Positions 2,763 through 4,897 of a DNA stretch of 36,111 bases are shown here, piece after piece. The notes below the pieces were generated by a model that searched no databases, was not told the origin of the DNA, and was given only the letters and a program-made list of their open reading frames with translations. Position 1 is the stretch's first letter. Each line of letters starts with the position of its first letter. This DNA comes from Alphaproteobacteria bacterium (GTDB lineage Bacteria > Pseudomonadota > Alphaproteobacteria > Micropepsales > Micropepsaceae): positions 1 to 36,111 of the forward strand of contig CANFDA010000006.1 in the NCBI GenBank assembly GCA_947445215.1, read 5' to 3'. The translations under genes were made by a program, and so were the position numbers.

Positions 2763-3986
2763 ATGCGTATCGATCCGACTAAACATGCGTGGATGAGCGC
2801 GCCGGAAACGGCGGCGGTGATGGCCGCGCTGGTGGAAGCGCGGTTTGTGGGCGGTGCCGTGCGCAACGCGATCCTGGGCGTGCCTGTGTCCGATATTGAC
2901 ATCGCCGTGCCGATGCCGCCATCCGAAGCGGTCACGCGGTTGTCGGCGGCGGGGATCAGGACCATCCCCACCGGAATCGAGTATGGCACCGTCACGGCGG
3001 TGATGGGGCCGCAGGCATTCGAAGTGACCAGCCTGCGCCGCGACGTCGAGACCGATGGCCGCCACGCCGTCATCGCCTTCACCGACGACTGGGCCGAGGA
3101 TGCTGCGCGGCGCGATTTCACAATCAACGCGCTCTATGCCAGCGCCGAAGGCGAGATCTTTGATTATGCCACCGGCGTGGAAGATTTGATCGCGGGCCGC
3201 GTCCGCTTCATGGGTGATGCCGCCACCCGCATTGCCGAGGACTATCTGCGGGTACTGCGCTTGTTCCGCTTCCACGCCTGGTACGGTACGGCCGATATGG
3301 ACGAAGCGGCGCTGCGCGCTGCTGCGGAGGCGAAAGACAAATTGGCCACCCTGTCGGCGGAGCGGGTGGCGAAGGAATTGCTACGGTTGCTGGAGGCCTG
3401 GCGGCCCGCGCCGGTGCTGCGGGTGATGGTAGCGACGGGCGTGCTGTCTGCCGTGTTGCCCGCGGCGCATGATCTGTCGCGGCTGGAGCGGCTCTGCGAA
3501 CTGGATATCGAGAACATGCTGGCGCCCGACCCGGTTCTGCGGCTGGCGGCGCTGCTGACCGACAGCAAGGCGGCGACGCAGACCGGCGGAGTATTGAAGC
3601 TGTCACGGGCCGATCAGACGCGGCTGGTGGCGGCACTGGACGCATCAGAAAAGACCGCTTCCCATCTGAAGGCGGGCGATGTGCGCAAGCTGCTCTACCG
3701 ACTGGGCGTGCCCACCTTCCGCGATCGTGTGCGGCTGGCCTGGGCGGCGGCGCCCAAATCTCAACCGGCACTGGCCTGGCGCACGCTGCTGGCGATGGCC
3801 GATACGTGGGGAAAGCCGCGCTTCTCGCTGACCGGCCGCGATGTGATTGATGCAGGCGTGACGGAAGGCGCGCGCGTGGGCGAGGTTCTGGCGACGCTGG
3901 AAACCGGCTGGGCAGAGGAAGATTTCGCCACGCCGGAAGAAACGCTGCGCGAACGTCTGGCTCAGCTGATCAAGGACAAATCCTGA
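2763..3986 (+). CDS. cca: CCA tRNA nucleotidyltransferase / poly(A) polymerase family protein
   Basis: A 407-residue class II nucleotidyltransferase that likely builds or repairs the 3' CCA end of tRNAs. The N-terminal catalytic core shows FVGGAVRNAILG followed by SDIDIAV, which supplies the metal-binding Asp pair. It then has GTVTAV, the RRDFTINALY motif, and EDYLRVLRLFRFHA of the neck domain. ATG 2763 is preferred over the GTG at 2760, because GGAAG ends 4 bases before the ATG and the repaired Nudix frame stops at TGA 2761-2763 overlapping it. The stop TGA at 3984-3986 overlaps the next start in the same TGATG manner. PcnB-type poly(A) polymerase activity cannot be excluded by sequence. Confidence 0.92.
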   Translation: MRIDPTKHAWMSAPETAAVMAALVEARFVGGAVRNAILGVPVSDIDIAVPMPPSEAVTRLSAAGIRTIPTGIEYGTVTAVMGPQAFEVTSLRRDVETDGRHAVIAFTDDWAEDAARRDFTINALYASAEGEIFDYATGVEDLIAGRVRFMGDAATRIAEDYLRVLRLFRFHAWYGTADMDEAALRAAAEAKDKLATLSAERVAKELLRLLEAWRPAPVLRVMVATGVLSAVLPAAHDLSRLERLCELDIENMLAPDPVLRLAALLTDSKAATQTGGVLKLSRADQTRLVAALDASEKTASHLKAGDVRKLLYRLGVPTFRDRVRLAWAAAPKSQPALAWRTLLAMADTWGKPRFSLTGRDVIDAGVTEGARVGEVLATLETGWAEEDFATPEETLRERLAQLIKDKS

Positions 3987-4897
3987 TGCTGAAGCTGGTA
4001 GAAAGTTTTTCGTTGGCGGGCGATCCGGCCAAGCCGAACGAAGACGCCTTTGGCGGCAGCGATCAGGCGGCCGTGGTGCTGGACGGCGCGACCATGCTGG
4101 GTGACGGGTTGATGCCGGGCCCCTCCGACGCGGCCTGGATCGCACAGTTCGGGGCACGGCGATTGATCGCGCATCTCAAGGACTGGGAGCCGAAAAAGGC
4201 GCTGAAGCTGGCGCTGGGCGATGTAGAGAAATCCTTCGGCGCCCTTCGCCGGGCCGAGCCCGAGGAATATTGGCAAGTGCCCGTCGCCTCGATGATGCTG
4301 TTTGTGGAAATACAGGCCAGCCTCCCCCTTAGCGCAAAGCGCGACAAGGGGGAGGTGGCCGTAGCTGGCTCTCGAGTCAGCGAAGGCCGGAGGGGGTTGG
4401 AATTCTTATACTTCGGCGACTGCGGCGCACTGGTTGAGCAGCCGGACGGATTGAAGATCATTGGTGAAACGCTGGACAAGCGCGCGGAGGAATCCGCACG
4501 CGCAGCCGCGCTGGCGAAGGAAAAGAATATTTCGCCCGCGTCAGGATTGTCGCGGCCCGAATTCATCGGCCACCTGCGCGCCGCCCGCAACCGGGTCAAT
4601 AATGGCGGCAACTGGCTGTTCTCGCCCGACAAGCGCGCGGCCACCCATGCGCAGCGCCGGCTGGTAGCTGTGGAAAAGGGCGCATATCTACTGTTGGCGA
4701 CGGACGGTTTCCTGTCGCTGGCGTCCGACTATGGCGCCTACGATGCTGCCGGATTGCTGGCAGCGGCGAAGACCAAGGGCCTGAAGGCGCTGGGCGACGA
4801 AATCCGCGCCATCGAAAACGCCGACATGCTGGGCGACAAATTCGCCCGCTTCAAGAAGAGTGACGATGCTACGGCCCTGCTTCTGACAGTGGAATAA
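3986..4897 (+). CDS. PP2C-type serine/threonine phosphatase carrying an in-frame repeat insertion
   Basis: A 303-residue protein with the metal-ligand pattern of PPM/PP2C phosphatases: NEDAF (Asp20), VVLDGAT (Asp33), YFGDCGAL near residue 145, TDGFLSL and the final DDATALLL. It should dephosphorylate Ser/Thr residues with Mn or Mg; its substrate is unknown. Residues of roughly 109-139 are foreign: they are encoded by a 93-bp palindromic insert flanked by TGGAA at 4305-4309 and 4398-4402. Removing one copy plus the insert gives the continuous core LFVE-FLYFGDC. The insert is 31 codons, so the frame is kept and the enzyme may still fold with an extra surface loop. The start overlaps the stop of cca by one base. 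Confidence 0.85.
   Translation: MLKLVESFSLAGDPAKPNEDAFGGSDQAAVVLDGATMLGDGLMPGPSDAAWIAQFGARRLIAHLKDWEPKKALKLALGDVEKSFGALRRAEPEEYWQVPVASMMLFVEIQASLPLSAKRDKGEVAVAGSRVSEGRRGLEFLYFGDCGALVEQPDGLKIIGETLDKRAEESARAAALAKEKNISPASGLSRPEFIGHLRAARNRVNNGGNWLFSPDKRAATHAQRRLVAVEKGAYLLLATDGFLSLASDYGAYDAAGLLAAAKTKGLKALGDEIRAIENADMLGDKFARFKKSDDATALLLTVE
4305..4402 (+). repeat. 93-bp palindromic element inserted in frame in the PP2C gene
   Basis: CCTCCCCCTT at 4321-4330 pairs perfectly with AAGGGGGAGG at 4346-4355. Inside the loop GCGC (4332-4335) pairs with GCGC (4339-4342). A second weaker stem joins GCTGGCT (4364-4370) to AGTCAGC (4375-4381). The tail GGCCGGAGGGGG at 4385-4396 loosely mirrors the head. TGGAA occurs at both edges (4305-4309, 4398-4402), 93 bases apart, and looks like a target-site duplication. 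Composition and form resemble short palindromic intergenic repeats of alphaproteobacterial genomes. The family name is not known to me. Confidence 0.75.

Follow-up and report, generated by a model that had tools for sequence, protein, structure and literature searches.

A genus-specific dispersed palindromic element, in frame in a PP2C-type phosphatase gene and in loops of other enzymes of uncultured alphaproteobacteria

The phosphatase gene and the segment within it

The window, the whole stretch of 36,111 nucleotides analysed here, comes from contig C6 of genome G000 (1.92 Mb in 166 contigs, 86% complete) and carries a gene for a PP2C-type phosphatase (Table 1), the open reading frame of which stays open across the whole of an inserted segment. 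The SpoIIE/PP2C_2 Pfam matches of the product are weak, under the curated cut-offs; the PP2C fold is found in the AlphaFold model (one of a set with seven relatives), with a good core and a pTM of 0.82, in the Foldseek matches of this model, which are the PP2C structures PstP and tPphA (E ~1e-10), and in the conserved motifs NED, DGAT, GDC, DG and DDAT, all of them present. The pLDDT falls below 50 for residues 112-134, between the strands 100-110 and 136-143, and the model places the insert in a disordered β-hairpin loop and leaves the phosphatase core intact. Because the conserved motifs are in place, the insert-bearing enzyme is probably still active.

Table 1. Features of the PP2C locus (positions in the window)
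Feature	Position	Strand	Basis
PP2C-type phosphatase gene, 303 aa, carrier of the insertion	3986-4897	+	ORF, Pfam, AlphaFold, Foldseek
Left TGGAA, probably ancestral V-E loop codons	4305-4309	+	Empty orthologues, flank test
Palindromic element, forward, reading frame GEVAVAG..SEGRRG	4313-4398	+	Covariance model R1, dispersed copies
Hairpin 1, perfect 10-bp inverted repeat CCTCCCCCTT (4321-4330)/AAGGGGGAGG (4346-4355), inner stem GCGC/GCGC	4321-4355	+	Inverted repeat, covariation in 109 copies
Hairpin 2, outer stem GGCC (4357-4360)/GGCC (4385-4388), internal loop GTA/GAA, inner stem GCTGGC (4364-4369)/GTCAGC (4376-4381)	4357-4388	+	Fold, covariation
Tract GGAGGGGGTT at the 3' end of the element	4389-4398	+	Alignment of copies
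Right flank GGAATTCTTATACTTCGGCGACTGC with a β-strand and the GDC motif, which empty orthologues conserve	4399-4423	+	Orthologue comparison

The covariance model R1 detects a single copy of the element in the window (84.5 bits, E = 1.8e-16), where Rfam gives no hit, and the fold of the segment is more stable (z = -4.6) than that of any of 200 shuffles (0/200). Peptides translated from inserts would include stretches such as GEVAVAGSR and ATGTSPSNASHEGEAG. The family is ~85-105 bp long with two conserved stem-loops; the common two-hairpin structure was obtained from 15 aligned copies, and with 109 copies covariation is strong in four helices, 14 of the 20 pairs having changed on both sides. Standard pairs occupy 96.8% of the pair cells in an alignment that was fitted to the model and is thereby biased toward the structure, nonetheless at a large distance from the slid controls, in which 42-48% were paired and none exceeded 48.3%.

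Orthologues of the phosphatase are found in 63 of the 69 genomes of the genus, and in nearly all of the aligned empty genes the loop between MML and (L)EF counts seven codons. Since these orthologues lack the segment, the in-frame insertion in the window gene is, on sequence comparison, real. The closest empty relative, in G006 (L197), reads MML-VAAHEKG-LEFLYLGDC, with the codons CTG GTG GCT GCG CAT GAG AAG GGG TTG GAA TTC, and the net gain with respect to this gene is 75 bp, or 25 codons. Its flank AAGGGGTTGGAATTC is already similar to the 3' tract of the element.

A preliminary description of the locus had reported a perfect 10-bp inverted repeat with a second stem, lying in frame in a PP2C gene and bordered by TGGAA on both sides (4305-4309 and 4398-4402, 93 bp apart), and these observations hold. 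The two findings that it had named as contrary to its reading, the same loop with unrelated DNA in close orthologues of distant genera or a lack of further copies in the genome, did not appear. Its interpretation of the two TGGAA as a 5-bp target duplication has to be abandoned, as the empty G006 gene has TGGAA on the right side only, within GGGGTTGGAATTCTTATAC, and the flanks of 86 copies match no more often than shuffled pairs. The same applies to the clean unit of 93 bp (31 codons) the deletion of which was to restore an LFVE-FLYF core: the empty genes keep the loop, and the product of that deletion would be six residues shorter than them. This reconstruction is not ancestral because the right TGGAA predates the insertion and the left one belongs to the loop codons, probably the V-E codons seen as VES or VET in empty orthologues.

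The phosphatase loop is occupied in six genomes, forward in G000, G014, G051 (its sequence identical to L063), G052 and G043 and reverse in G080, that is, forward in three lineages and reverse in a fourth. What is left in G043 (L286) is the 3' half alone, still in frame and apparently part of a decaying copy. The loop of G050 is slightly longer than usual and retains GACCGGAGGGGG, the 3' end of the element, and that of G077 is also longer; both genomes fall within the G014/G051/G052 clade in a three-gene tree, and both loops look like eroded remnants or losses, G050 being the one clear remnant and G077 possibly a deletion.

Copies in the genus and other occupied genes

A nucleotide search revealed ~20 further places in G000 with all or parts of the element, and R1 gives 38 matches in this 1.9-Mb genome (E up to 0.05), so that the other copies which the preliminary description had proposed to look for do exist. 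In the genus, 40 of 69 genomes contain R1 matches, with a maximum of 58 per genome, and none was detected in 285 sampled genomes of other alphaproteobacteria; in the sample searched, the dispersed element is limited to this genus, which consists of uncultured alphaproteobacteria.

Most of 103 copies surveyed for their ORF context, drawn from fetched loci rather than from whole genomes, are intergenic, and eight (~8%) lie inside real genes, as recognised by Pfam domains, split matches to orthologues, or both. These are PP2C in G000, G014 and G080, TspO in G000 and G051, dgt and FGase (N-formylglutamate amidohydrolase) in G006, and a 2OG-Fe(II) oxygenase in G017. Many seemingly gene-internal copies, at L146, L156, L190, L126, L176, L122 and other loci, were left uncounted because they lie in mechanical ORFs unrecognisable as genes or simply abut a gene, as was a long frame at L191 that resembles an antisense frame and in which the Pfam domain NAD-GH begins past the element. 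The copies associated with DUF1365 (L078), an acyltransferase (L110) and PMT (L120) precede the domain and were classed as intergenic; the first (L078 1072-2349, G000 C17) is fused in frame directly upstream of the DUF1365 protein and may supply its GTG start codon. Two other cases were noted, one at L124 1426-2286 (G000 C46), where a ROK-family protein has its C-terminus apparently lengthened through an element copy, and one at L099 1022-1738 (G081 C11), where LptE has an in-frame copy after its likely start and ahead of its lipoprotein signal.

Searches of the orthologues extended the list of occupied sites. Six scattered lineages carry the element in the dgt loop, always in reverse orientation (G006, G066, G043, G078, G072 and G049); the oxygenase is filled in G017 and G049, with four empty relatives, TspO twice (G000 and G051) and FGase in G006 only. 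Empty loops are of nearly constant length, six residues in 29 of 32 dgt genes and fifteen in 26 of 27 TspO genes; the filled ones are longer by ~20-36 amino acids. The intragenic copies always provide a stop-free frame and a net gain divisible by three; forward copies are read with GTA (or the aligned codon) in register and reverse copies in an A-T-x-T-S-P register, a frame preference that is suggestive only, with three independent sites in each orientation and other frames often open as well. The dgt gene of G019 (L262) carries after HNGPL a different in-frame insert, two tandem units of TVAALPPQDEEDGE, each containing CCTCCTCA-GGA-TGAGGAGG, which is an unrelated palindromic repeat in the same loop and does not belong to the R1 family.

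Recurrence, choice of site and movement

In a tree built from PP2C, dgt and TspO, the same genes as those tested, after removal of the insert regions, the filled tips are scattered among empty neighbours, mostly with good support. At equal costs, parsimony favours an empty root, PP2C requiring four changes, dgt six and TspO two. Elements that share a site resemble each other, in most cases, no more than they resemble dispersed copies (the TspO pair is 64% identical). Although they come from different genes and species, the reverse copies in G080 PP2C, G006 dgt and the G017 oxygenase share 82-89% identity and so belong to one subfamily. The best explanation, with a probability of about 0.78, would be a genus-specific, non-autonomous dispersed palindrome, residing mostly between genes and sometimes in frame in tolerant gene loops; separate lineages would each have acquired it on their own in the same loops of PP2C, dgt, TspO and the 2OG-Fe(II) oxygenase, in one case in the opposite orientation, with extra residues that are probably disordered, and some of the filled loops would later have been eroded by deletion. 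We infer that the proteins with inserts stay active.

The repeated use of the same loops may reflect either the survival of insertions or their placement. Random insertion followed by selection, with few places tolerating an in-frame insert, has about even odds of being the whole account; it agrees with the variability of the filled loops, which lie between conserved blocks, with the disordered hairpin turn occupied in PP2C, and with the presence of the unrelated repeat in the dgt loop of G019. Nevertheless, the eight surveyed intragenic copies, which are the unbiased set since later orthologue finds came from sites already known, include four same-gene pairs, whereas by our own estimate 0.014 would be expected over ~2,000 genes and ~0.3 if only 100 were permissive, and the orientation common to 6/6 dgt insertions also speaks against selection alone. 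Recognition of sites by the element or its enzyme through their sequence, e.g. AACCCC-like or T/A-rich, is rather unlikely by comparison. The similarity of some empty sites to the element end (AAYCCGCCGCG in the oxygenase, AAGGGGTTGG in G006 PP2C) and the A-rich 3' flank in 86 copies would fit this proposal; the TspO and dgt targets, however, bear little similarity to that end. The flank of the filled dgt loci (L256-L261) shows a synonymous shift: the proline codon that precedes the insert is CCT in 5/6 filled genes and in G019, and in 0/32 other empty genes. As the T-rich flank is thus seen at filled sites, there is no sign that such a motif was present in dgt beforehand. A stronger form, a homing-like preference for the same housekeeping codons across species with no target duplication, is more doubtful still. 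The filled, empty, opposite-oriented and eroded versions of one site that occur in several enzymes, in a genus with genomes of ~2-5 Mb, permit a direct test of targeting by the element versus filtering by selection, and they also bear on whether coding palindromes supply new protein segments.

The recurrence itself would vanish if each gene had received one ancestral insertion, retained in few species and lost in most. The forward PP2C insertions of three lineages have a common site and frame, deletions do happen, as the loops of G050 and possibly G077 indicate, and with gains costed at three times losses the dgt scores are close, 14 for an empty and 15 for a filled root. Against this stand the opposite orientation in G080, the near-constant length of empty loops, where apparent losses leave irregular ones, and the fact that same-site elements are mostly not each other's closest copies, all of which make a single insertion per gene improbable as a general account, even if part of the forward PP2C insertions could descend from one ancestral event with repeated loss.

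With regard to the movement of such recurrently inserted copies, they probably travel as DNA; the likeliest route, a tentative proposal, would be through extruded single-strand hairpins or template switching at short homology, at sites that resemble the AACCCC/GGGGTT end. Mobilisation as a REP element by a RAYT (Y1) transposase, to which the GTAG ahead of a GC-rich hairpin, present in most aligned copies, and the Y1 transposases in 9 of 25 sampled genomes could point, is very improbable and was rejected, as the GTA belongs to an internal loop enclosed by the covarying GGCC/GGCC outer stem with no free foot, no Y1 match was obtained in G000, which is 86% complete, or in the nearly complete, copy-rich G006 (the sample did not include G080), and none of the 12 Y1 loci read is flanked by the element.

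Relation to known coding palindromes

Protein-coding palindromes have mostly been viewed as an oddity of Rickettsia linked to reduced, decaying genomes. The Rickettsia palindromic elements (RPEs) are structured repeats of ~100-150 bp found in frame in unrelated conserved genes, to which they add a peptide (PMC10969869, PMC3733652). The element described here is likewise a structured palindrome, slightly shorter, and likewise inserted in frame in conserved genes with insert-free orthologues (PP2C, dgt, TspO, FGase and the 2OG oxygenase); it differs in its occurrence in one genus of the sample, in both orientations, and with repeated hits at the same codons. The likeness is one of description and behaviour, the sequence search being that of R1 against the 285 alphaproteobacterial genomes, with no match. 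Hence, the comparison with Rickettsia made in the preliminary description is retained for the behaviour of a dispersed in-frame element and does not extend to membership of the RPE family.

Palindromes of the GTAG/CGTC REP type are small and mostly intergenic, some of them encoding 20-30 amino acids inside genes, also in S. alaskensis and E. litoralis, and REPs are located at about the same site in two Xanthomonas recB genes (PMC3733652). The present element is longer, a unit of two hairpins with GTA/GAA as its internal loop; it has neither the unpaired GTAG foot of the hairpin nor, at the Y1 loci mentioned above, copies on the flanks of a cognate RAYT gene, and its consensus lacks both the terminal CGTC and an AT as the first two stem nucleotides, features given in the description of CGTC REPs (PMC3733652), so that by the tests available it is not a REP. 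Intragenic palindromes are thus already known from Rickettsia and, as intragenic REPs, from free-living bacteria. The novelty that had been attached to a free-living alphaproteobacterial host is weakened because such REPs have been reported in free-living bacteria including two alphaproteobacteria; a free-living host is plausible here, with genomes of ~2-5 Mb. What is new is a genus-specific family that has occupied identical sites repeatedly, one of them in both orientations, and that visibly decays, and no published description of it was found in the papers searched.

MITEs fused to genes, such as ERIC, BOX and QMITE1, are non-autonomous and dispersed, and in-frame fusions are possible (PMC10969869), properties that the element shares. 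In contrast to MITEs, the 86 copies compared show no target-site duplication and no parent transposon was found, and its termini are, by eye, vaguely and imperfectly similar. A second conserved module, approximately GCGACCATCCGCTAGGGC, lies 5' of a subset of copies, e.g. L109, L137 and L144.
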